From: Clostridiales bacterium Firm_04
GTDB lineage: Bacteria; Bacillota; Clostridia; Oscillospirales; Ruminococcaceae
Length of the DNA: 64,000 nt
Direction of reading: 5' to 3'
NCBI GenBank assembly: GCA_001603005.1
Contig: LVAJ01000030.1
Coordinates: forward strand, 186,001-250,000
Shown piece after piece: positions 2-21,562 of the stretch; position 1 is the first letter of the stretch; the number at the start of each line of letters is the position of its first letter. A model generated the notes under the pieces. It was not told the DNA's origin. It searched no databases and saw only the letters and a list, made by a program, of their open reading frames with translations. Both the position numbers and the translations under genes were made by a program.

Positions 2-1396
2 GCAGATGTCAAGATCTCCAAGCAGGATGTCCACAGCAAGGAGATCAAGGGCGCAGAGCTGACGCTGACCGGCAAGGACAGTAGCGGCAATGCAGTCAAG
101 TTCCCGACAGGTTCTATCGTTCCGGGCGAAGGCGCTGAGGTCGTGACCGGCAGCGGCGAAACGATCGTCTGGATCTCCGGCGATCATCCGACCGAGATCA
201 AGAATCTGGATGACGGCACTTACACGCTCCATGAGGAAGTCGCTCCGAATGGCTACAAGGTCGCAACCGATATCACATTCGTGATCGAGGGCGGCAAGCT
301 TGTCAAGATCGGCGAGGAAGCGGTTCACGCTGATGCGGAGATCGTCATGGTGGATGAGGCAATTGAGACCACAACCACAACGACGGCTACCACCGCAGCT
401 CCGGCAACCACGACCACAACCACCACGACAACCGCTGCTCCGGTAACCACCACCACGACCACAACCACCACGACGACGACCACGACCACTACGACAACTA
501 CCACCACCACGACGACCACGACCACAACAACGACCACGACGACCACGACCACGACGACCACGACTACGACGACCACGACAACTACGACGACGACAACCGA
601 GACCACTACAACCACTTCTGAGACCACAGTCTCCAGCGAGGAAGGCGGCGTTACCGAAACCACCACAACGACCACCGTCACCGCTGCAAAGGCAGAGGTC
701 CAGATCAAGAAGCAGGATGTTCACAGCAAGGAGATCAAAGGCGCAACGCTGACGCTGACCGGTAAGGACAGCGAGGGCAACACCGTCACATTCCCGGAGA
801 ACTCCGTTGTTCCGGGTGAGGGTGCCGAGCTTGTCAACGGCAGCGGCGATCAGCTTGTGTGGATCTCCGGCGACCAGCCGACCAACGTCAAGAACCTTGC
901 AGACGGTACGTACACGCTCCACGAGGAAGTGGCACCGAACGGCTACAAGGTCGCAACTGACATCACATTCGTGATCGAAGACGGCAAGCTCGTCAAGATC
1001 AATGATGCTGAGGTCGAAGCAGACGCAGAGATCGTGATGATCGACGAGGCTGAGGAAGCAACCACTACCACAACATGGGAAACCGGCGATAAGGCTGAGG
1101 ACAACGAGCGCACAACGACCTCGGTGACCGAGACCACTCCGGCAACCAGCGAGACCGGCGATGACGCCGAGAGAACCACGACGACCGAGACCGAGACACA
1201 GACTGTTGCTGCGACGACCACCACGACCGCGCAGACAGCGACCTCGAAGCAGACCGTGCCGTCCAACGGCGTGAACTCCAAGACCGGCTCTGTCCGCACC
1301 GGAGATTCCGCTCCGACTGCAATCGCAATCGTTGGCATCCTGATGGGTGCAGTGGCAGTTGCAATGCGCAAGCGCCGCAACGATGACGAGCAGTAA
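2..1396 (+). CDS. Threonine-rich SpaA/prealbumin-fold surface protein, 5' partial
   Basis: The frame is open from base 2, so the start lies upstream of the window; 464 residues are visible. Two near-identical domains of about 115 residues (bases 2-355 and 695-1050) have the look of SpaA/Cna-B (collagen-binding B type) stalk domains: each has KQDVHSKEIKGA, then LTLTGKD, then GTYTLHEEVAPNGYKV. A linker with 51 consecutive Thr codons (446-598, mixed ACN codons) separates them. The C-terminus has a Ser/Thr-rich linker, SVRTGDS, a hydrophobic segment (about 1318-1362) and a basic tail RKRR. This is the layout of a sortase-anchored or membrane-retained protein, but with no canonical LPXTG. Role (adhesin, pilin-like or scaffold) is unknown. 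Confidence 0.75.
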   Translation, partial: ADVKISKQDVHSKEIKGAELTLTGKDSSGNAVKFPTGSIVPGEGAEVVTGSGETIVWISGDHPTEIKNLDDGTYTLHEEVAPNGYKVATDITFVIEGGKLVKIGEEAVHADAEIVMVDEAIETTTTTTATTAAPATTTTTTTTTAAPVTTTTTTTTTTTTTTTTTTTTTTTTTTTTTTTTTTTTTTTTTTTTTTTTTTTETTTTTSETTVSSEEGGVTETTTTTTVTAAKAEVQIKKQDVHSKEIKGATLTLTGKDSEGNTVTFPENSVVPGEGAELVNGSGDQLVWISGDQPTNVKNLADGTYTLHEEVAPNGYKVATDITFVIEDGKLVKINDAEVEADAEIVMIDEAEEATTTTTWETGDKAEDNERTTTSVTETTPATSETGDDAERTTTTETETQTVAATTTTTAQTATSKQTVPSNGVNSKTGSVRTGDSAPTAIAIVGILMGAVAVAMRKRRNDDEQ

Positions 1397-1432
1397 ACGG
1401 CAGACGATCGTCAAGGCAATCAACTGAAACAA

Positions 1433-1470
1433 AGGGCGCTGTACGAAAGTACGGCGCCCTTCAGTTTGAT
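1433..1470 (+). terminator. Intrinsic terminator of the surface protein gene
   Basis: A GGGCGC...GCGCCC stem extended by GTAC/GTAC around a GAAA loop, followed by TTCAGTTTG. Confidence 0.7.
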
Positions 1471-4918: not shown

Positions 4919-6530
4919 TGAGAAGACGCCGCTGACAGGAGAACCGGAGGTCGCGGCAGAATCCGCAGAGGCGGCAGAGGAAGCAATCGAGACCGCTGCG
5001 GAGCAGACAGAACAGGCTGCCGAAGCTGCGGAAGCCGCTGTATCGGATGCTGCGGAAAATGCAGCAGGAACGGTCAGCGATGCGGAATCTGCAATGGACA
5101 ATGCGCTGAACGAGCTGGATTCGCTGCTCTCGGAGAATGCAAAGGGCGAGGCAGAGCCGGAAACGGCAGAACAGCCGGATGCTGCCGAAGCAGAAGCGGA
5201 TGCAGCGGGTGCAGAGCCGGAAGCCGCACCGCAAGCAGATGCGCCGAAAAAGCCCGTGCAGAAGAAAAAGCCTGCACAGAACAGTGTGCTCGGCGGGATC
5301 CTGCCGAAAAAGAAAAAGAAGAAGCGTGCAAGAAAGCGCACGGTCGAGGACGAGCTTGCCGATCTCGCAGCAGAGGAGGCAGCATTCGATTCGTGGGGCA
5401 GACCGATCAAAAAGAAGCGCAAGCGCGGAAAGCGCAGGAAGACGCGCAAGCTTTCCTGTACGCTCGTGCTGCTGACCACGATCCTCGCGCTGTCCTCGGT
5501 GCTTTCTGTGGCGATCCTTGCAGTCGCAAAAGAGATGTACGGCATCGAAAAGGGCGTTGACCAGCAGGTGGTCACGATCCCAGAGGGCGCAAGCACGCGC
5601 GAGATCGCAGAGATCCTGAAAGAGGAAAAGATCATTTCGCTGCCGGAGGTCTTCCGCTTCATCTCCCGTATGAAGGGCGCTGACGGTCAGTATATCGCGA
5701 GCGACCATGTTCTGAAACCGAGCATGTCCTACGAAGCGATGATCGCAGAACTCTGCCGCAACTATGTCAAGGAAGGACGCGAAACGCAGAAGGTCGTCAT
5801 TCCGGAAGGCTATACGCTGCTGCAGGCGGCACAGCGTCTGAAAGAATATCAGATCTGTGATCCGGATAAGTTCATCTTCTTCTTCAACAGCGGCAACTAC
5901 GGCTTTGAATTTGAGGATTATCTGCCGGAAGCTTCCGATCTGAAATTCATGCAGATGGAAGGCTACTGCTTCCCGGATACCTATGAATTTTATGTCGGCG
6001 AGGATCCGAACATCGTCGCGCAGAAGATCTACGCGAACTTCAATTCCAAGCTCACGGACGGCGATTACAAGAAAATGAACGAGCTGAACATGAGCCTCGA
6101 TCAGATCATCACGCTGGCGTCCATGATTCAGGCGGAATCGAGTGACAAGAAGTATATGAAGCAGGTTTCCTCGGTCTTCCACAACCGTCTGCTGGATCCT
6201 GCGGATTTTGCCAAGCTGCAGTCTGACCCGACCAGAAAATATGCAGAGGAAACCATCGCGCCGAACCTCGACCGCGATAACGAGACCATGTGCAATGCCT
6301 ACAACACCTATACCGGTGTCGGTCTGCCGCCCGGAGCGATCTGCAATCCGGGACGCGCTGCGATCGAAGCGGCACTCTATCCGGATCAGACCAACTACTA
6401 CTACTTCAACGCGAATATTGATACGCGCGAGACCTTCTTTGCGGAGACACTGGAACAGCATAACCAGAACCTCGCAATGGTTCAGGCGCAGTATGATGCA
6501 GCAAATGCTGCGGAAAACGGCGAATCATAA
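4911..6530 (+). CDS. mltG: Endolytic murein transglycosylase MltG (YceG-like)
   Basis: 539 residues from the ATG at 4911, chosen because GGAGG lies 6 bases upstream. An in-frame start further up at 4860 would add residues inside the previous gene. The N-terminus is a long low-complexity cytoplasmic stretch: Ala/Glu-rich to about residue 130, then Lys/Arg-rich. A single TM segment (about 180-207) follows, then a LysM-like region (VVTIPEGASTREIAEIL) and the YceG catalytic domain, with the presumed catalytic Glu in LASMIQAESSD. It cuts nascent glycan strands at the membrane. The acidic/basic cytoplasmic tail is much longer than in Escherichia coli MltG. Confidence 0.9.
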   Translation: MADEKTPLTGEPEVAAESAEAAEEAIETAAEQTEQAAEAAEAAVSDAAENAAGTVSDAESAMDNALNELDSLLSENAKGEAEPETAEQPDAAEAEADAAGAEPEAAPQADAPKKPVQKKKPAQNSVLGGILPKKKKKKRARKRTVEDELADLAAEEAAFDSWGRPIKKKRKRGKRRKTRKLSCTLVLLTTILALSSVLSVAILAVAKEMYGIEKGVDQQVVTIPEGASTREIAEILKEEKIISLPEVFRFISRMKGADGQYIASDHVLKPSMSYEAMIAELCRNYVKEGRETQKVVIPEGYTLLQAAQRLKEYQICDPDKFIFFFNSGNYGFEFEDYLPEASDLKFMQMEGYCFPDTYEFYVGEDPNIVAQKIYANFNSKLTDGDYKKMNELNMSLDQIITLASMIQAESSDKKYMKQVSSVFHNRLLDPADFAKLQSDPTRKYAEETIAPNLDRDNETMCNAYNTYTGVGLPPGAICNPGRAAIEAALYPDQTNYYYFNANIDTRETFFAETLEQHNQNLAMVQAQYDAANAAENGES

Positions 6531-7857: not shown

Positions 7858-9738
7858 ATGAACCTCTTTGAACAAATTGAACCGCTGCTGCTGCGGGTGC
7901 AGAAGCCTGCGCGGTACATCGGCGGCGAGCCGGGCAGCATCATGAAGGACAAATCGCAGGTCAAAGCGCGGTTTGCGTTCTGCTTCCCCGACCGCTACGA
8001 TGTCGGCATGAGCCACCTCGGCATGAAGGTGCTCTATTCTGTCATCAACAAGCGGCAGGAATACTGGTGTGAGCGCGTGTTTGCGCCGGACACCGATTTT
8101 GAAGCGCTGATGCGGGAGCATCATCTGCCGCTCTATGCGCTGGAAAGTCTGGAGCCGATCAGGGACTTCGATTTCATCGGCTTCACGCTGCAATATGAGC
8201 TTTGTTATACGAATATCCTGAATATGCTCGATCTGGCGGGCGTACCGATTTATCAGCGCGACCGCGGCGAGAACATTGCGCCGATCGTGTGCGCGGGCGG
8301 ATCCTGCGCGTGCAATCCGGAGCCGATCGCGGATTTCTGCGACCTCTTTTTCCTCGGTGAAGGCGAGGAGGTCGATCTGGAGGTCATGGATCTGTACGTC
8401 AAAATGCGGGATGCCGGCGCAACGCGCTCGGAGTTCCTGAAAGCTGCCGCGCAGATTCAGGGCGTTTACGTCCCGTCGCTCTACGACGTCACCTACAACG
8501 AGGACGGCACCGTTCAGGTGGTCACACCGCGGGACGGCGCGCCGGCAAGAGTCCGGAAGCGGATCATCGAGAATTTCGATGCATGTCCCGCGCCGGAGGA
8601 ATTTGTCGTGCCGTTTTCGGAGATCGTGCATGACCGTGCCGTGACAGAGGTACTGCGCGGATGTCTGCGCGGATGCCGGTTCTGTCAGGCGGGCTTTCTG
8701 TATCGCCCGTTCCGCGAGAAAAAGCCGGAAACGATCTGTGAGCAGTCAAAGAAGCTGATCGACAACACGGGCTATGAGGAGCTGTCGCTCTGTTCGCTCT
8801 CGACCTCGGATCATTCGCAGATCGAGGAGATGATGGACGGGCTGCTCACCTTTACCGACAATGAACATATCAATCTGAGCCTGCCCTCGCTGCGTGTGGA
8901 CAATTTCAGCACGGGGCTCATGAACCGCCTGCGACGCGTCCGCAGCAGCGGTCTGACCTTTGCGCCGGAAGCCGGTACGCAGCGGATGCGCGACGTCATC
9001 AACAAGAACGTCACCGAGGAAGAACTCATGCGCACCTGCAAGATCGCGTTCAATGCGGGGCAGACATCGGTCAAGCTCTACTTCATGATGGGCTTGCCGA
9101 CCGAAACGGATGACGATATCCGCGGCATCATCGAGCTGGCGCAGCGCGTCGTGGACATGTTCTACGAAATGGAACGCCGCCCGAAGGGTAAGCCGGTGCA
9201 GATCTCCTGCTCGATCGCGACCTTTGTGCCGAAGCCGTTCACGCCGTTCGAGTTTCACCCGCAGGATACCCGCGAGATGATCGCGCACAAGCAGAAGATC
9301 CTTGAGGAAGCCGTCGCGGGACACAAGCGGATCCGCGCGAGCTGGCATTTTCCGGATGCGAGTATTCTGGAAGCGGTGCTGGCAAAGGGCGACCGCCGGC
9401 TCTGCGATGTGCTCTACGGCGCATGGAAGCGCGGCTGCATTTTCGATGCATGGTCGGAGCATTTCCGCTATGACCTCTGGCTCGAATCCTTTGCGGAGCA
9501 CGGGCTGAATGTCGAGTTCTACGCGAACCGCCCGCGCCCCTATGACGAGGTGTTCCCGTGGGATCATCTGGATTATTACGTGGATAAGGCATTCCTGATC
9601 CGCGAAAATGAAAAGGCAAAGCAGGCACAGACCACGCAGCACTGCCGCCTGAACTGCGCCGGATGCGGCGTTACGAAGGTGACGGGGCATCCCTGCTTTG
9701 ACTACAAGGCACTGAAAGAAGAAGCGAAATCATCGTAA
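7858..9738 (+). CDS. B12-binding-type radical SAM protein, TIGR03960 family
   Basis: 626 residues. The N-terminal 30-210 region resembles a B12-binding fold (RFAFCFPDRYDVGMSHLG; APIVCAGGSCACNPEP; FFLGEGEE). The radical SAM cluster motif is RGCLRGCRFCQAG (C-X3-C-X2-C, about residue 266-273). A C-terminal Cys-rich segment ends with LNCAGCGV. In many Firmicutes this family sits next to a DUF2344/TIGR03936 partner; here that partner is at 10912, with two DUF2500 genes between them. The substrate is unknown. An RBS (GCCGGAGG) precedes the start. Confidence 0.9.
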   Translation: MNLFEQIEPLLLRVQKPARYIGGEPGSIMKDKSQVKARFAFCFPDRYDVGMSHLGMKVLYSVINKRQEYWCERVFAPDTDFEALMREHHLPLYALESLEPIRDFDFIGFTLQYELCYTNILNMLDLAGVPIYQRDRGENIAPIVCAGGSCACNPEPIADFCDLFFLGEGEEVDLEVMDLYVKMRDAGATRSEFLKAAAQIQGVYVPSLYDVTYNEDGTVQVVTPRDGAPARVRKRIIENFDACPAPEEFVVPFSEIVHDRAVTEVLRGCLRGCRFCQAGFLYRPFREKKPETICEQSKKLIDNTGYEELSLCSLSTSDHSQIEEMMDGLLTFTDNEHINLSLPSLRVDNFSTGLMNRLRRVRSSGLTFAPEAGTQRMRDVINKNVTEEELMRTCKIAFNAGQTSVKLYFMMGLPTETDDDIRGIIELAQRVVDMFYEMERRPKGKPVQISCSIATFVPKPFTPFEFHPQDTREMIAHKQKILEEAVAGHKRIRASWHFPDASILEAVLAKGDRRLCDVLYGAWKRGCIFDAWSEHFRYDLWLESFAEHGLNVEFYANRPRPYDEVFPWDHLDYYVDKAFLIRENEKAKQAQTTQHCRLNCAGCGVTKVTGHPCFDYKALKEEAKSS

Positions 9739-12356: not shown

Positions 12357-13169
12357 ATGACGATTTACTTGGATGTGCTGCTGCTCTCAAATCTCTGGGC
12401 GGACTATGCGCTGCTGCATGCCGCCGCCCGCCTGACGCATACGCCGCTGCCGAAGCTGCGCGGGCTGCTCGGTGCAATGCTCGGCGCGATCAGTGCGCTG
12501 GTGATTCTGCTGCCGCCGCTGCCGAAACTGCTGCTACCGGCGGTGCGGCTGCTGCCTGCGGGCATGGTCTGTGCGGCGGCATTCGGGCGGAAGCGGCTTT
12601 TGCGGCAGACGGCGGTGTTCCTCGGTGTGAGCATGTTTTTCTGCGGCATGCTGCGGGCATTGGCGGTGCTGTTCCGACCGGCGGGGCTTTACATGCAGAA
12701 CACGGTCATTTACGCGGACATTTCCCTGCTGACGCTGCTCGGCGGAACGGCATTCGCATCGGCATGCGCGGCGCTCTGGGCAAGGCATACCGCGGCAAAA
12801 CCGCGCGGCGGATTCCGGCTGCATCTGCGGCTTGCCGGACAGGATTTTCTGCTGCCCGCGATCGCGGACACCGGCAACACGCTCTGTGATGCGTTCACGG
12901 GCAAGCCGGTCGTGGTCTGCCCGACGGCTGCACTCTCCCGCTGGCTCGCCGGCTATCCAGATGCCGAACAGGCGGCTGCATCATGCAGAGGTTTCCGGAT
13001 GCTGCCGGTGCGGACGGTCGCGGGCGGGGCGCTGCTGCCTGCGTTTCAGCCGGAATACGCGGCGGTCTGTCAGGCAGGACGCACCGCCGAATCGCCTGCC
13101 GATGTGCTGATCGCATTGACAGAGAATCCGCAGACGGCTGCGATTTTGCCGGCATCGGTCTGCGGATAA
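12357..13169 (+). CDS. spoIIGA: Sigma-E processing protease SpoIIGA
   Basis: 270 residues. [20 protein letters not shown] starts a hydrophobic N-terminal half with about five TM segments (to about 145). The C-terminal aspartic-protease-like half carries the catalytic motif [16 protein letters not shown] (about residues 170-185). It cleaves the pro-sequence of sigma-E in the mother cell. An in-frame GTG at 12348 is an alternative start, but the ATG at 12357 gives the normal family N-terminus and has GGTGATT upstream. sigE follows 19 bases later. Confidence 0.92.
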
Positions 13170-13188
13170 CAAGGAAAGGAGCGTATTT

Positions 13189-13902
13189 ATGCGATTTTTG
13201 AAACGGTACTTCCAGATGCTGAAGCTGCTGCTGCCGGAAATGGGCGATTCGGTGCATTATCTCAGCGGCGCGGATCAGCTGCCGGCGCCGCTGACGCGTG
13301 CGCAGGAAGCAGAGGCGTTTGCGGCGCTTGCAAAGGGCGACCGCGCGGCAAGGGAGACTTTGATTGTACATAATCTGCGGCTTGTGGTGTATATTGCGAA
13401 GAAATTCGAGACGCCTGCTGTTCCGCTGGACGATCTCATTTCGATCGGGACGATCGGGCTGATGAAGGCTGTCGCGACCTTTCATCCGGAAAAGAACATC
13501 AAGCTTGCGACCTATGCCTCGCGCTGCATTGAGAATGAGATCCTGATGCACCTGCGGAAAGTCTCGCAGCAGCGTGCAGAAATCTCGATTGACGAGCCGC
13601 TGAACACGGACTGGGACGGCAATGAGCTGCTGCTTTCGGATCTGCTCGGCACGGACGGCGACGAGGTCTGCCGCGGCGTGGAGCAGGAATCGGAGCGGCG
13701 CCTGCTGCGGGAAGCGGTCATGCGGCTGAACCCGCGCGAGCGGCAGATCATGGAGATGCGGTTCGGCTTGCTGAACGGGCATGAGCGCACGCAGAAAGAG
13801 GTCGCGGAGACGATCGGCATTTCGCAGTCGTATATCTCGCGGCTGGAAAAGAAGATCATCCGGCGGCTGCGCGCGGAGCTGGAAGATGTGATTTTCTCGT
13901 AG
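13189..13902 (+). CDS. sigE: Sporulation sigma factor sigma-E precursor
   Basis: 237 residues, matching pro-sigma-E. An amphipathic pro-sequence (about 1-27, [17 protein letters not shown]) precedes the cleavage region [13 protein letters not shown]. Region 2 has [16 protein letters not shown] and [17 protein letters not shown]; region 4 has [15 protein letters not shown] and [16 protein letters not shown]. It directs early mother-cell transcription and is activated by the preceding protease. AAGGAAAGGAGCG precedes the start. sigG, often the next gene in Bacillus, is not here. Confidence 0.96.
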
Positions 13903-16079: not shown

Positions 16080-16447
16080 GCAACAAGCGCATCCGGACGG
16101 CGCTTGCAGTGCTGCTGATGCTGGTTCTGCTGATGATCTGCTCTGTCGTGACGGTGCGGCATTGCTGCGGCAGGCTGCTTCGCGGGACGGATCTGGTGCT
16201 GGAATCGCTGGATTCGCAGCAGGAGAATGCGGTTTCGGCTGCGATCGAAGCGCTGGAAGCGAACTGGCGCCGGTACAGCATCCCGCTGCATCTGTTCGTG
16301 CCGAATCAGCCGCTGACCGATCTCAACAAGTCGGTTTTCCGGCTCGGGGCGATGCAGAAAGACGGCTGCGATGAGCTGCGCGCGGAGCTCTGCGCCGTCA
16401 AAGCCGATCTGGAATGGATCCGCGGGCAGGAGATGACATTGTTCTGA
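16076..16447 (+). CDS. DUF4363-like membrane-anchored protein
   Basis: 123 residues with one N-terminal TM segment (about 8-29) and a helical extracytoplasmic domain (SQQENAVSAAIEALEANWRR; LTDLNKSVFRLGAM). This fits DUF4363, often encoded beside DUF421 in sporulating Clostridia. Start ATGAGC overlaps the DUF421 stop (ATGA), with AAAAAGGAGGCGG upstream. Function unknown. Confidence 0.72.
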   Translation: MSNKRIRTALAVLLMLVLLMICSVVTVRHCCGRLLRGTDLVLESLDSQQENAVSAAIEALEANWRRYSIPLHLFVPNQPLTDLNKSVFRLGAMQKDGCDELRAELCAVKADLEWIRGQEMTLF

Positions 16448-16459
16448 CCGCACAGAAAG

Positions 16460-16495
16460 AGCGCCGCAGGCGGGAAATCCCTGCGGCGCTGTTGT
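16460..16495. terminator. Terminator shared by convergent genes
   Basis: AGCGCCGCAGG / CCTGCGGCGCT perfect 11-bp stem, GTTGTG on the plus side and CTTTCTG on the minus side. It lies between DUF4363 (plus) and the transglutaminase-like gene (minus). Confidence 0.7.
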
Positions 16496-16529
16496 GTATC
16501 ATGAATCCATTCAGCTGCAGATTTTCAGA

Positions 16530-18155
16530 TCAGATTCTGGTGATCGAGAGGTAGTAGTAGTCGCTGTAAGCAGAGCGCGGAGCTACACCGGTCTGTGCAT
16601 AGTTGAGAGTCTTGAACTGGACCTTGTAGGTATGACCGTTGACGGTGATATTCTGGGAGGAACCGTTGGTCGTATTGATGACGACGCCGCCGACCTTGAT
16701 ACCGAAGTAGACATAGCTGGAGACGTACTGCGGAAATTCAGTGGGAGGATTATAATTCGGATTGTATTCAGATGTTCCTGCAAACTGTTCAGGCTTGTAC
16801 GACTGACCGATAACGTTTTTAGGTTTTGCAGTGAATTTTGTGAATTTGCAGTTCGGATTGTTCTTATCGTAGATTTCGACATCCATACTGTCATTGATCT
16901 GGGTTTCAATCTTAAAATAAGAATTGCCTTCGCAGAAGTTTGCGCTGTTCAGATTACTGTAGGAGAAAGGAATTGTGCTGCGATTATGGTTTAACGTATT
17001 CTTATCGTTTACGTAGGCATCGCTAAATCCTGCCGTTTCATATCCCATTGTGGTCATGAAGGAGGATGTTGTACAATCAATCATGTAGTATCCTTGATTC
17101 GAGGAAAAACGGAATGCATTTGCAAGATGCGCCGGCAATGAAACATCAAGCACGCTGGAAGTGGATGCAGAATTTGTGACATTGATTCCGCTTGCGCGGC
17201 AGAGATATTCAAATCCATAAGCGATACCTTCGCAGATACCGGAATGAAATGCCAGTACGCCAAGCGGTGAAGCGCCAAAAGCTGTTGTTCTTTCGTTCTC
17301 AGTGTCAAGAATGTATGAATAACGGACATTGGTCTTCATATAGTTGTAAATCATTTCCAGCTTTTTCTGCACAGAAATATTGGTTGCGGTAAAACCGTTA
17401 TCCTGTGCGATTTTCTGTGCATATTCATATGCAACCTGCTTGTAATAAGGAGAAGTGCTTACTGCGCCAAGAAATGTCAGTTTGTTAGCGAGTGACGAAT
17501 TGTTGAGCTTGAACAGATCGCCGTTGCAGGCTTTATAGGTTGTGGTAAGTAAGGCGCCGTAATAATTTTCAAAGGAGCTCTTCGTATTTGTGTTGATGTT
17601 ATATGCATTACTGGACGGATTATAGATTTTAATGGAAGTTAGATTACAGTTCCGACCGAAGGCATCCGGTGCACAATAGTTCAGAGCACCCACATTGATT
17701 TTCAGAGTAGTCAAAGCCGGGACTTCGTAATCAATAAATGCCTGACGATTGATTCTCTTCACGGTGTTCGGTATTGTGAGTGTGGCAACTCTGGTATGAT
17801 CGGGGTTGTTGCTGTGAATGACAGCCTGATTCTGGAAGCCGCCTAGTTCAGTGACTGTGTATGTTGAACTGGTGTTGCCGTTTTTTACAGTGATAGTACT
17901 AGGAATCGTAATTGCTGTTTTGGTTGTCAGACTCCATGTTCCGTTGAGATCAGTGATTCTTTCCAGTTTGCAGTTGTTTGTTCCAGGGATAATTTCGTAA
18001 TAGTACCGCAATTTTGCGGCGTTGTCAGTTACATAGGACGGATCAGCTGTGGCTGCACTCGCATGCATCGCGGGCATGATGCCTGCCGTACCCATTGCAA
18101 GCAGGGCACCGGACAGAAGAAGGGATGTGATTTTTTTGACGCTCTTGTGTTTCAT
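16530..18155 (-). CDS. Secreted protein with LRR_5-like and transglutaminase-like domains
   Basis: 541 residues. A signal peptide (about 1-34, cleavage near HASA-A) is followed by a BspA-type LRR_5-like stretch (ATLTIPNTVKRINRQAF; LTTLKINVGAL; LTSIKIYNP, about 120-180). A transglutaminase-like domain has a plausible triad: C308 (SGICEGIAYGFEYLCR), H343 (LPAHLANAFRF) and D360 (YYMIDCT). The C-terminal 120 residues are beta-rich. There is no sortase motif, so it is probably released. AGGAGGTTTTCTT precedes the start. The strong promoter at 18332-18360 and a 12-codon ORF lie upstream. The domain could be a protease, a cross-linker or a cyclase; sequence cannot decide. Confidence 0.78.
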   Translation of the reverse strand: MKHKSVKKITSLLLSGALLAMGTAGIMPAMHASAATADPSYVTDNAAKLRYYYEIIPGTNNCKLERITDLNGTWSLTTKTAITIPSTITVKNGNTSSTYTVTELGGFQNQAVIHSNNPDHTRVATLTIPNTVKRINRQAFIDYEVPALTTLKINVGALNYCAPDAFGRNCNLTSIKIYNPSSNAYNINTNTKSSFENYYGALLTTTYKACNGDLFKLNNSSLANKLTFLGAVSTSPYYKQVAYEYAQKIAQDNGFTATNISVQKKLEMIYNYMKTNVRYSYILDTENERTTAFGASPLGVLAFHSGICEGIAYGFEYLCRASGINVTNSASTSSVLDVSLPAHLANAFRFSSNQGYYMIDCTTSSFMTTMGYETAGFSDAYVNDKNTLNHNRSTIPFSYSNLNSANFCEGNSYFKIETQINDSMDVEIYDKNNPNCKFTKFTAKPKNVIGQSYKPEQFAGTSEYNPNYNPPTEFPQYVSSYVYFGIKVGGVVINTTNGSSQNITVNGHTYKVQFKTLNYAQTGVAPRSAYSDYYYLSITRI

Positions 18156-18256
18156 AAGAAAACCTCCTGAAAAATATGATTTGTATTACACCTTACACAG
18201 CGCTGCGGATTTTTGCAGCCCGTGATTGTAAACCGAGAATTGTTTGCCGGATCTGT

Positions 18257-18295
18257 TTATCCGAAAAGTCCTGCCAGCCAATCCCAAATCGACAT
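18257..18295 (-). CDS. 12-residue peptide ORF MSIWDWLAGLFG
   Basis: ATG at 18293-18295, stop TAA at 18257-18259, giving MSIWDWLAGLFG. It has a good ribosome-binding site (AAAGGAG, 9 bases before the ATG) and a near-consensus promoter 30-60 bases upstream. The peptide is short, amphipathic and Trp-rich (WDW), with no signal sequence and a Gly-Leu-Phe-Gly end. It is the first ORF of the transcript that leads 102 bases later into the secreted transglutaminase-like gene. It could be a leader peptide that tunes the downstream gene, a secreted signal peptide or a membrane-active peptide. Expression is not proven. Confidence 0.5.
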   Translation of the reverse strand: MSIWDWLAGLFG

Positions 18296-18331
18296 GTTGT
18301 TCAGCTCCTTTCTGACCTCGACTGTGTCTGC

Positions 18332-18360
18332 ATTATAGCACAGGGGATTGTCGATCGCAA
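18332..18360 (-). promoter_or_regulatory. Sigma-A promoter for the 12-codon ORF and the transglutaminase-like gene
   Basis: Minus strand TTGCGA (18355-18360), 17 bp, TATAAT (18332-18337). The first ATG with a ribosome-binding site downstream is the 12-codon ORF. Confidence 0.78.
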
Positions 18361-18710
18361 TCGAAAAAGAACCAAGTGTCAGCTGAGCGGAGTGAAAGGA
18401 ACGAACGGGCATTTTTTGGGAGTGAACGGATCGCGGAAAATGGATGTAATACGTTCTTTGCAGGGGGCTTCTGATTGTAATGTGCGCGCGCGGGCGCGTG
18501 CTGCTTCCGGTTTCCGATCGGAGCGGAACGGCGCTTATATGTTGGGATATGTTGCGTGAAACATATGGTTTTTAGTATAGCAATATGATTCAAAATTATA
18601 AAAATATGAAAAAGCAATAAATTCACAAGTCAGGACATTTGAGCCTGAATTTTGAAAAAACGAGACATATTAAGATTTCCTTAAATATTGGTAAATGTCA
18701 CAAAATTTGG
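18361..18710. other. Non-coding spacer between divergent promoters
   Basis: Between two divergent promoters. There are short direct repeats of AGTGAA(A/C)GGA near 18390-18430, then an AT-rich stretch. No ORF with a ribosome-binding site and no recognised RNA is seen. Confidence 0.5.
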
Positions 18711-18941: not shown

Positions 18942-19706
18942 ATGAAGAGATCAGTCAAATCTGTTATCGCATCTGCAGCTGCTATTTTTATGTGCGCAGC
19001 TCCGGCAATTTCGTCCGTTCCGGTACTCCCTGTTGTTGAAAGCATCACCGCAAGTGCTGCACAGTATCCGGTCGCACTGGATTACATGGGACAGGGTTAC
19101 GCGGCAAACGGTCTGCTGTATCGTTTCAACAGCGGCAGCACTGTTTCGCTCGTCGGCAGAATCACAAACGTTTCCAATATCAAGGTTCCTGCATACGTGA
19201 CGATCAACGGCATTAACCGTGCTGTTACGAAGATCGGTGCCGGTGCTTTCCGCGTTACAGCGATTGACGATCATCCGGATTGGTTCACCAATCATCACTA
19301 TAACTACACCACCTCCATTCATACCGTGGATATGACCGATGCTTACAACCTCACCGAGATCGAGGACAGAGCATTCCAGTATCAGACATTCAGCACCCTC
19401 AAGTGGCCGACCAACTGCCATATCACCACGATCGGCAACAGCGCTTTCGAGGGCATCCGCGATCTGGAAGCGATTACGATCCCGACTTCGGTCACACAGA
19501 TCCGTGCACAGGCATTCAGATGGGCAAATCTGAAGGATCTCCAGATCCCGGGCGGTAATGCCAACACGCCTGCTCTGAATTTCGGCAGCCTCGCTTTCGG
19601 CTACTGCACGAAGTTTACGCACATGTCCAGCGGCAGAACCCTGACCGGAAGCCCCGATGCATTCAAGGGCTGCCCGTTCGCACTTCGTCCGTTCTCCATT
19701 TTCTGA
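18942..19706 (+). CDS. Secreted BspA-like LRR protein, copy 1
   Basis: 254 residues. The N-terminus (about 1-42) is a signal peptide (KSVIASAAAIFMCAAPAISS). The mature part is built of LRR_5/BspA-like units: ITKIGAGAF-type, LTEIEDRAFQYQTF, ITTIGNSAFEGI, VTQIRAQAFRWANL and LNFGSLAFGYC. There is no anchor motif at the C-terminus. ATG at 18942 is used because of GAGGAGATTTTGAAA upstream; the frame extends 40 codons further into the leader. It is the first of a tandem pair, about three-quarters identical to the next gene. Likely a secreted binding protein; ligand unknown. Confidence 0.82.
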   Translation: MKRSVKSVIASAAAIFMCAAPAISSVPVLPVVESITASAAQYPVALDYMGQGYAANGLLYRFNSGSTVSLVGRITNVSNIKVPAYVTINGINRAVTKIGAGAFRVTAIDDHPDWFTNHHYNYTTSIHTVDMTDAYNLTEIEDRAFQYQTFSTLKWPTNCHITTIGNSAFEGIRDLEAITIPTSVTQIRAQAFRWANLKDLQIPGGNANTPALNFGSLAFGYCTKFTHMSSGRTLTGSPDAFKGCPFALRPFSIF

Positions 19707-19789
19707 TTATCGCAGAATTTACGGGTAATAGACAGGACTTTTTGTTTTACCATTATAACAAAATAATTGATGATTAGGAGATTTTGAAA

Positions 19790-20629
19790 ATGAAAAGATC
19801 AGTCAAATCTGTTATCGCATCTGCAGCTGCAATTTTCATGTGCGCTGCTCCGGCAATTTCTTCTGTTCCGGTACTCCCTGTTGTGGAAAGTATCACCGCA
19901 AGCGCAGCGCAGTATCCGGTCGCACTGGATTACATGGGACATGGCTACGCAGCCAACGGTCTGCTGTACCAGTTTAACGGCAGCAACAGTGTAGCCCTGA
20001 TTGGAAGAATCACCAATGTTTCTTCCATCAATGTTCCTGCCTGCGTGACGATCAACAATTATAATTACAAAGTCACAACGATTGCTGCTGAAGCTTTCCG
20101 TGTCACAGCAATCGACGATCATCCGGACTGGTTCAATGAGCGGCATCACTATAAGTATGAAACATCCATTCATACGCTGAACATGACAGATGCGTCCAAT
20201 CTCACGGAGATCGGCGACAGAGCATTCCAGTATCAGACGCTGGGCACGATCAAATGGCCGACGAACTGCAAGATCACTACGATCGGCAACGAAGCTTTCG
20301 AGGGCATGGGCAATGTGCTCGAGATCAAGATTCCGAAGTCTGTTACAACCATCCGTGCAAACGCATTCAGATGGGGTGCTCTGCAAAAGGTAACCTTTGA
20401 GGGTACATCTTCCACAAATGCCGCACTCGCGATTCAGAGCAATGCATTCCGCGAGTGCTTGTATCTCAACCAGATCGTCACCAACCGCAAGAATCTGGCT
20501 GGCAGCAACGCAAACGCATTTGACTATTGCGGAAAGACGCTCAAGAGCCACATCACATCTACTGTGAGCAGCTCCTATGTAACCACCTTCAAGAACACGT
20601 TCAATTTTGCGCATCCGTTCAACCCGTAA
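19790..20629 (+). CDS. Secreted BspA-like LRR protein, copy 2
   Basis: 279 residues, a paralogue of the preceding gene. The first 70 residues (signal peptide and VALDYMGHGYAANGLLYQF) are almost unchanged, then repeats LTEIGDRAFQYQTLG, ITTIGNEAFEGM and VTTIRANAFRWGAL. The C-terminus is longer and diverged (SNAFRECLYLNQI; FDYCGKTL). The ribosome-binding region TTAGGAGATTTTGAAA is also copied from gene 1. No promoter or terminator is seen in the 83-base gap, so it is probably co-transcribed with copy 1. Confidence 0.82.
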   Translation: MKRSVKSVIASAAAIFMCAAPAISSVPVLPVVESITASAAQYPVALDYMGHGYAANGLLYQFNGSNSVALIGRITNVSSINVPACVTINNYNYKVTTIAAEAFRVTAIDDHPDWFNERHHYKYETSIHTLNMTDASNLTEIGDRAFQYQTLGTIKWPTNCKITTIGNEAFEGMGNVLEIKIPKSVTTIRANAFRWGALQKVTFEGTSSTNAALAIQSNAFRECLYLNQIVTNRKNLAGSNANAFDYCGKTLKSHITSTVSSSYVTTFKNTFNFAHPFNP

Positions 20630-20752: not shown

Positions 20753-21562
20753 TCAGGAAGCATTTTCTGCATCCGGCTGCGGTACATTTGCCGGTACTGC
20801 ATATTTCTGCGGGAATACCTTCACAAACCAGTAGAGTCCGGCAAGGAAGACGATCAGACTGACCGCTGCGGCAGGCGCCGTGAGCAGCGAATAGCCGTTT
20901 TCCAGCCGGTAGATCAGCGACAGATCCGGCAGGCAGCAGAGATTGTGCAGCATATGCACAAGGATCGTATACAGGATGTTTTCCGTTTCATAATAGCAGA
21001 TCGCTACGAAAATCGTGCCTGTGAAGATATTCACAACGCCCTGCGCGCTGTAAAAACTGTGCAGCAGCGCGAAAAGCAGCGTGGTGAACAGAATGGTGAA
21101 CCACTTTTTGCTGCATTTTTTCAGCAGTCCCATTCCGCAAAGCCGGAACATCAGCTCCTCGCTGACCGGCGCGATGATGACAGAGCCGAGGATCAGCAGC
21201 AGCGTGCTGTTGTCGTTTGTATCGGGCTTGATCGAGGAAAAGCGGCAGGCGATCAGACCGTAAAGCGTGGATGCAAGCTCACATGCCGTCCATTGCGTTA
21301 CAAAGGTCACCAGCGGAACGGTCACATGAAAATTGCGGATCTGTGCGCCGAGATGCAGTTTGTTTCCGCCGAGGCGGTACAGGATCACGCCGACCACACC
21401 GCCGAACAGGAGTCCGAGATGACCGGCAAGATTATCATCGCCGCAGGCAGTGACAATAATAACCGCGACAATCAGCGCTGCGGCAAGGCAGAGAAAAAGT
21501 GAGCAGATCGCGTACTGCTTGGGTGATGCAAAGGGTTTCGTTTGCGTGGGGTTCTGGTTCAT
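20753..21562 (-). CDS. CPBP family intramembrane metalloprotease
   Basis: 269 residues, about seven hydrophobic segments. It carries the CPBP/Abi motifs: motif 1 SEELMFRLCGMG (Glu-Glu-x3-Arg), motif 2 FALLHSFYS (His) and motif 3 HMLHNLCC. Family members are Rce1-like membrane proteases; the substrate is unknown. It is the last gene of the run that starts at 26110. AAGGAG precedes the ATG. Confidence 0.88.
   Translation of the reverse strand: MNQNPTQTKPFASPKQYAICSLFLCLAAALIVAVIIVTACGDDNLAGHLGLLFGGVVGVILYRLGGNKLHLGAQIRNFHVTVPLVTFVTQWTACELASTLYGLIACRFSSIKPDTNDNSTLLLILGSVIIAPVSEELMFRLCGMGLLKKCSKKWFTILFTTLLFALLHSFYSAQGVVNIFTGTIFVAICYYETENILYTILVHMLHNLCCLPDLSLIYRLENGYSLLTAPAAAVSLIVFLAGLYWFVKVFPQKYAVPANVPQPDAENAS

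Follow-up and report, generated by a model that had tools for sequence, protein, structure and literature searches.

The Agr system (AgrBDCA) joins a polytopic GHKL histidine kinase and a LytTR regulator to a direct-repeat promoter and a divergent, peptide-encoding transcript. ComC/ComD/ComE and the pheromone systems of class II bacteriocins likewise have a GHKL kinase, a LytTR regulator and direct repeats, together with bacteriocin-like outputs and peptides that carry double-glycine leaders. LytTR regulators use paired direct repeats spaced about two helical turns apart and located upstream of the -35 element. A different type of signal, the leaderless communication peptides (SIP/LCP), is found in RopB systems of Streptococcus pyogenes and other Firmicutes (PMC10518010, PMC6565748). 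According to PMC10518010, these peptides are mostly 8-10 residues long, highly hydrophobic, composed of aliphatic and aromatic residues and made without a leader; their codes differ among species, some are plasmid-borne, the secreted virulence factor SpeB is among the outputs, and they are sensed by RopB homologues that carry TPR domains at the C terminus. The families listed there are the Streptococcaceae, Lactobacillaceae, Enterococcaceae, Carnobacteriaceae, Bacillaceae and Staphylococcaceae, and do not include the family studied here. Short hydrophobic peptides (SHPs), which are processed from propeptides (PMC10518010), are linked to radical-SAM RiPPs in the Rgg-controlled RaS-RiPP systems of streptococci (PMC13361665).

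Here we describe a 12-residue peptide gene in a 64,000-nt stretch of DNA (the window) from a relative of gut Ruminococcus, whose genome we number G000. It belongs to a family of Trp-rich peptides of 7-13 residues that is tied to one kind of kinase/regulator pair, and by its sequence context it looks like a cell-to-cell signal. Genes of 7-13 codons slip past ordinary annotation.

The micro-ORF and its expression unit

The original prediction claimed a complete expression unit for a 12-residue frame, naming no strand; we find every element of it in the window, on the minus strand. The -35 element TTGCGA (18355-18360) is separated by a 17-bp spacer from the -10 element TATAAT (18332-18337), which is preceded by TG and lies within a -10/5'-leader box, GCTATAATGCAGACACAGTCGA (18318-18339). 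The Shine-Dalgarno (SD) sequence AAAGGAG (18305-18311) stands 9 nt 5' of an ATG at 18295, and the frame, MSIWDWLAGLFG, comprises 12 codons plus a stop ending at 18257. The next minus-strand start, at 18155, follows after 101 nt, in agreement with the 100 bases predicted. The window has a single unit of this kind (promoter, SD, ATG and 6-20 codons), and of 60 random 64-kb sequences from a first-order Markov model one has such a unit, with thresholds chosen after the site was known; this count and the homologues in relatives bear out the view that the unit is unlikely to be random. At up to two mismatches the peptide motif matched the window a single time and matched 3 of 100 shuffles. Rfam gave no matches in the whole window at gathering thresholds.

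Homologues within the genus

Among 41 relatives, a DNA search returned a weak match in G001 that spanned the promoter and leader. Across 30 genomes of the genus, copies of the leader box without mismatches (at all but its two N positions) were found in G000, G001, G043 and G017; allowing three mismatches added 13 matches, mostly in other contexts, compared with 1 in a reversed control. Behind the same -10, leader and SD as in the window, G001 encodes MFDWLWDLFG and G043 encodes MFDWLLGLFG. G023 carries three micro-ORFs, MWDWIFGIFG, MWDWLFGIFG and the GTG-started MWDWIFGIFGA; the micro-ORFs of the genus follow the motif [FW]DW[LI]xx[LI]FG. With up to one mismatch allowed, the genus motif was found at five sites in 4 of the 30 genomes, all without mismatches (reversed control, 0); the GTG-started copy, one codon longer, escapes this pattern. 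The motif combined with an SD was present in 2 of 396 family genomes, both from the window's genus (control, 0). In G017, the 127 nt 5' of the micro-ORF are 99% identical to the window, and its frame cannot be read because the contig begins inside the ATG.

Lack of frame conservation had been named in advance as evidence against the prediction. We found the frame to be conserved: synonymous changes per site exceeded nonsynonymous ones in 13 of 15 pairs among six genus micro-ORFs (nine codons each), including four synonymous and no nonsynonymous changes over nine codons between the first and third G023 copies (G023a and G023c). Two pairs showed the opposite trend (G001/G023b, 0.00 versus 0.31; G001/G023c, 0.24 versus 0.35). 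The codon comparison also indicated that conservation reaches past the Trp codons. Of the features proposed for checking in relatives, the peptide and its upstream box are conserved, and the downstream gene is not constant.

Several candidates were discarded. A pattern search of genome contigs gave eight stretches, of which two were those of G001 and G043 and the other six had no frame or an unsupported one; MNNNWLFFLFG (stretch L037), for example, was rejected as it is without the motif and had no further support. A family-wide pattern matched 3 of 396 genomes, and the matches in G214 and G159, at the ends of longer frames, were not counted. In viral contigs, one pattern gave a single match that was part of a longer frame; a second gave 43 matches, of which five have in common a short frame that differs in sequence and the others begin longer frames, and no member of the micro-ORF family was recognised among them.

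A kinase/regulator pair tied to the micro-ORF

In three relatives, a micro-ORF and the gene of a LytTR response regulator are divergent, with a GHKL histidine kinase gene next after the regulator; micro-ORF and regulator are 176 nt (G001), 173 nt (G043) and 204 nt (G023) apart. Pfam matches on the pairs of G001 and G000 were PF14501, PF04397 and PF00072. Matches of some kind to the G001 kinase occurred in 23 of the 30 genus genomes, and full-length kinases at no less than 59% identity only in G001, G043, G000 and G023, which are the four micro-ORF genomes. The probability that a random draw of 4 from 30 genomes would give the same overlap is 1/27405, ignoring shared descent. G003 retains a truncated kinase remnant (70% identity, aligned residues 208-428) and no close regulator.

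The original prediction also noted that no cognate receptor gene is adjacent. This is true locally; the likely pair is elsewhere in G000 (88.6% complete), on contig C39 at 16255-18257, and lies next to the micro-ORF in relatives. The G000 regulator occupies 16255-16956 (79% identical) and the kinase 16971-18257 (60% identical), with no micro-ORF of the [F/W]DW type beside them. Because pair and micro-ORF are unlinked in this genome, we infer their partnership there. The 76%-complete assembly of G017 yielded no kinase match, despite two perfect repeats (described below) and the micro-ORF start. In G000 the second of these repeats is found 3.1 kb past the kinase, and in G017 the contig ends 2.7 kb before it; the G017 pair may therefore be missing from the assembly.

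Related kinases are also present outside the genus. By a profile of four sensor halves, with the best seven or fewer candidates scored per genome, 7 of the 396 genomes of the family encode the kinase, five of them in four other genera. At four of the five other-genus loci an SD-preceded micro-ORF stands at the same place, encoding MGDFLDWLFGGRK (G346), MQDWFDFWGWFL (G202), MFGWWDW (G353) and MLDWFDWWGW (G432); at the fifth (G339) no micro-ORF was seen beside the related kinase. Six of the 29 genomes of the genus that includes G202 and G432 encode the kinase; the four new ones contribute the peptides MLEWFDWWLW (G766), MQDWFDWWGW (G759), MFGWWDW (G770) and MQYWFDLWGWNF (G760). Linked micro-ORFs therefore span four genera in all, and the other-genus peptides are diverged yet still W-rich and 7-13 residues long. 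Over the order, the sensor profile (best eight or so candidates per genome scored) matched only the window's own genome among 375, which makes the system patchy. The kinase profile matched 148 pattern stretches in viral contigs, none confirmed, and none of 56 phage records spanned 80% of the query.

Overall, a divergent, SD-preceded micro-ORF lies 160-262 nt from the regulator start at 11 of 13 loci of the kinase subfamily, a set that leaves out the truncated G003 remnant. The exceptions are G000, whose micro-ORF is the unlinked one in the window, and G339. In 244.5 kb of control sequence we counted 40 SD-preceded micro-ORFs of 6-14 residues, and the six that were DW-rich were exactly the genus members. 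Another 33 regulator or kinase loci, partly overlapping and 116.5 kb in sum, contained 20 micro-ORFs, one of them marginally DW-rich. The DW-rich filter was set after the genus peptides were known and before those of G766, G759, G770 and G760; it was passed by 10 of the 11 linked peptides and failed by MQYWFDLWGWNF and by an unlinked peptide, MWLWPWLP.

A direct repeat and opposing promoter-like sites

Upstream of the -35 element, at 18398-18429 on the minus strand, the window carries a direct repeat of the LytTR type, CCGTTCACTCC-N10-CCGTTCGTTCC, whose period is 21 bp and which we predict to be an operator. It has no mismatches, and 1 of 100 shuffles matched at up to three. The window promoter thus has the paired repeat typical of LytTR targets, which suggests regulation by such a protein. 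A lag-21 pair scored 17-20 out of 20 at all 14 promoters scored, without shuffles and with a repeat unit derived from those same promoters; G001 reached only 17, and in G043 a lag-30 pair beat the lag-21 pair (20 versus 19). A scan of the genus is less circular as a test; in it, pairs without mismatches occurred only in G000, G023 and G017 (two each). At up to three mismatches there were 31 matches versus 15 in the reversed control, and most three-mismatch matches of both leader box and repeat were set aside as lying in unrelated contexts, except for two G001 repeats that front neighbours of the kinase. One two-mismatch match (G018) also has a different context. A position matrix built from the repeat pairs turned up little else that scored strongly at the loci scanned. 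A perfect repeat at 21373 of contig C39 in G000 (13374-13405, plus strand, of stretch L072) lies upstream of a gene named by eye, from its start, as asparagine-synthetase-like, with a weaker opposing copy towards a DUF5085-like gene; the repeat is also present in G017 (contig C82).

Behind all 11 regulator-linked micro-ORFs, within 170 nt, stands a sigma-70-like site that faces the regulator and scores 10-12 out of 12. In nine of these copies at most 1 of 200 shuffles was as good, with 14 of 200 for G043 and 20 of 200 for G023a; the G043 site scored is a distant one, and an equal-scoring TTGACA-17-TAGTAT is visible at the usual place. The unlinked copies (the window, G023b, G023c and the second one of Ruminococcus albus) have opposing sites of 8-9 out of 12, often equalled by shuffles. 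Given this orientation, the leader of the regulator/kinase operon is probably antisense to part of the micro-ORF mRNA at the linked loci.

Genes behind and around the micro-ORFs

The gene that follows in the window (16530-18155, minus strand) encodes a 541-residue protein with a signal-peptide-like start, judged by eye, and a Transglut_core match of 24.5 bits (cut-off, 23). It is a probable co-transcribed output of the micro-ORF unit; between 18257 and 18155 the minus strand shows no promoter-like or terminator-like site. Proteins matching NlpC/P60, Amidase_5 or PG_binding_1 lie behind the G023 micro-ORFs, and for G043 no gene was recognised directly behind the micro-ORF on its strand among ORFs of at least 110 residues. 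The suggestion that the peptide acts on or with the secreted enzyme is therefore not supported as a trait of the whole family, as the downstream genes vary between copies (transglutaminase-like, hydrolase-like, RiPP or none recognised). What the copies have in common is the repeat and the kinase/regulator pair.

In one case the micro-ORF is on a plasmid of a cultured strain. By coordinates and compared sequence, the G759 locus agrees with plasmid pRUMAL03 (NC_014826.1, 15,907 bp) of R. albus 7, also named Hominimerdicola alba 7. MQDWFDWWGW falls in the gap between genes from 5506 to 6062, and neither micro-ORF of the plasmid is in the PLSDB gene table, which is incomplete. The plasmid also encodes two RiPPs annotated to the huazacin family, a radical SAM protein, another protein whose Radical_SAM match stays just below cut-off, and an ABC transporter. 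The second micro-ORF (MWLWPWLP, 9145) follows a repeat at 9037, and ~500 nt beyond this micro-ORF comes the first RiPP gene (9653); another repeat, at 8104, stands before a DUF5085-like gene.

A gene of this DUF5085-like type neighbours the kinase in G001, G043 and pRUMAL03, and in G000 it is no more than 3 kb away. These genes occupy 12810-13256 (minus) of stretch L072, 7453-7899 (minus) of L032, 6872-7318 (plus) of L029 and 8279-8737 (plus) of L139. Their Pfam matches are below the cut-off (18.6 and 22.2 versus 30 bits); the protein, of ~150 residues, is conserved near the kinase, with repeats in front at several loci. ABC transporters occur near the pair in G001, G043, G023 and pRUMAL03 and could export the peptide. 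None was recognised by eye in the gene list around the G000 pair, and no exporter is common to all kinase loci.

Other features of these stretches were recorded in passing. The window has two tandem genes with near-identical signal-peptide-like starts at 18942-20629 (plus strand), the first matching BspA-type LRR_5 and the second similar by eye. A multi-TM protein at 20753-21562 (minus strand), 2.5 kb from the micro-ORF, presumably resembles CPBP/Abi proteases, and pRUMAL03 encodes an Rce1-like protein. In G003 (contig C25; ~1341-1463, minus strand, of stretch L004), a small Cys-rich frame, MNMMRCLQCCCYRNNH..., lies behind a strong-looking promoter and is of a kind that we take to resemble cysteine leader peptides.

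Peptide and sensor

All 15 listed peptides have 7-13 residues and no Cys, and Ser occurs only in the window peptide, at position 2; they are aromatic with net charges of 0 to -2. A simple hydropathy count puts 5-8 hydrophobic segments in the sensor half of the kinase. AlphaFold modelled the kinase with low confidence (mean pLDDT 53.9, rising to 63.6 when 11 sequences were supplied), and the model serves only for the helix count, about seven in the sensor, and for kinase-core similarity. Among the best 50 Foldseek matches, AgrC kinase-core structures ranked 2, 3, 10 and 26, amid those of many other kinases, and the kinase profile matched nothing among PDB sequences at 0.001. Peptide similarity correlated with that of the kinase half (r = 0.858) and of the sensor half (r = 0.864), leaving out G770, whose kinase is incomplete and which is also absent from the tree, and G339, which has no peptide. 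As both halves correlate equally, descent explains this relationship, and recognition is not shown by it.

Discussion

The sequence data support a conserved coding frame, its tie to one kinase/regulator subfamily, the repeat and, at linked copies, the opposing promoter-like sites. From these we infer that the frame is transcribed and translated, that the regulator binds the operator, and that the peptide is exported, binds the kinase and acts as an autoinducer. The original claim of an undescribed short, hydrophobic, signal-type peptide with an expression unit of its own finds good support in the conserved frame, the linked receptor-type genes of relatives and the regulator-type repeat. In the reading that we favour, to which we assign a probability of roughly 0.6, MSIWDWLAGLFG is a leaderless autoinducer sensed by an AgrC-like GHKL kinase, with a LytTR regulator acting at the 21-bp-period repeat. 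The membrane kinase, encoded on another contig in G000, would phosphorylate the regulator, which would bind the repeat and switch on the micro-ORF and the enzyme gene behind it. The peptide, made without leader or cysteine, would leave the cell, perhaps through ABC exporters encoded nearby, and activate the kinase in a positive feedback loop; outputs would be secreted enzymes or bacteriocin-like products. In relatives, the regulator/kinase promoter-like site, positioned so that it would read antisense through the micro-ORF, may make the switch bistable. More tentatively, and with slightly less than even confidence, we propose a separate signalling class in Ruminococcus-type bacteria, in which genes of 7-13 codons would encode the finished signal without leader, cyclisation or cleavage, a membrane histidine kinase would sense it, the antisense overlap would be a built-in switch, and repeat-driven copies before effector operons would add signal where outputs are made.

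The missing leader and the lack of an exporter common to all loci would also suit a peptide that is not exported but, lodged in the membrane or lying against it, modulates its kinase from inside the cell. MgrB acts on PhoQ by small-protein feedback of this sort, the aromatic and mostly acidic peptides are compatible with it, and the repeat suggests feedback through the same regulator. We consider it unlikely: 7-13 residues cannot span a membrane as one helix, and multiple copies at separate operons (three in G023, two on pRUMAL03) suit signal dosage at least equally well. The close spacing between the unlinked copies (window, G023b and G023c) and their output genes, with Trp codons in the frame, would suit a leader that controls the next gene in cis by Trp-dependent attenuation or translational coupling. 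Against this, the interval in the window has no terminator-like site, its leader RNA folds with ordinary stability (z = -0.95), the G043 micro-ORF has no recognisable following gene on its strand, linked copies end ahead of an opposing promoter-like site, and conservation exceeds the Trp codons, leaving the cis leader with a low probability.

About as improbable is that the peptide is itself the effector, a membrane-active antimicrobial or a type I toxin restrained by the opposing transcript. Aromatic composition, bacteriocin-like or hydrolase neighbours and the opposing sites of linked copies speak for it, but net charges of 0 to -2 are unlike those of cationic antimicrobials, type I toxins are longer and span the membrane, unlinked copies have no strong opposing promoter, and this reading gives no reason for the tie to one kinase subfamily. 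Twelve codons carry little information, so a functionless chance frame also deserves mention, but conservation, linkage, the repeat and the controls leave it next to no credence.

If the autoinducer reading is right, synthetic 7-12-mers could serve as on-demand inducers of RiPP antimicrobials, secreted hydrolases and transglutaminase-like proteins, and one of the strains concerned, R. albus 7, is already in culture. It would also make a new question testable, namely by what means a kinase in the membrane recognises a peptide that has neither leader nor modification. Our literature search, which covered few subscription journals and no preprints, returned no description of the micro-ORF family, none of a WDWL peptide in quorum sensing and no match for pRUMAL03.

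Comparison with known systems

Attenuator leader peptides have a terminator or alternative RNA fold before the gene, which the window copy lacks. ComC and PlnA-type systems share the GHKL kinase, LytTR regulator, direct repeats and bacteriocin-like outputs; they differ in the GG-type leader, absent from these micro-ORFs of only 7-13 codons. The likeness to SHP/Rgg systems lies in a short hydrophobic peptide near radical-SAM RiPP genes on pRUMAL03, whereas Rgg proteins are transcriptional regulators and the micro-ORFs are linked to a two-component pair. Agr is matched by the AgrC-like kinase, the AgrA-like LytTR regulator, the direct repeat and the divergent peptide transcript, but no AgrB-like protein was found in the five stretches checked: a screen of frames of 130-280 residues with at least four hydrophobic segments returned three, one a shadow frame and two on pRUMAL03 that are ABC-2-like and Rce1-like by Pfam. 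Features of AgrD are also missing, with no ring-forming Cys and no pro-region or flanking leader and tail.

The receptor is where the system departs from the RopB type, as the linked genes encode a LytTR regulator and a membrane GHKL kinase (Pfam, G001 and G000) in place of a RopB homologue. Because the linked genes are not of the RopB type, and neither an AgrB-like protein in the five stretches nor AgrD features in the peptides were seen, we regard the micro-ORF system as its own variant of peptide signalling. It nevertheless appears to work most like the RopB leaderless communication peptides, with which it shares the absence of a leader, differing codes, plasmid copies, secreted-enzyme outputs and, at 11 of 13 loci though not in G000, an ultrasmall, hydrophobic, SD-preceded frame beside the regulator.
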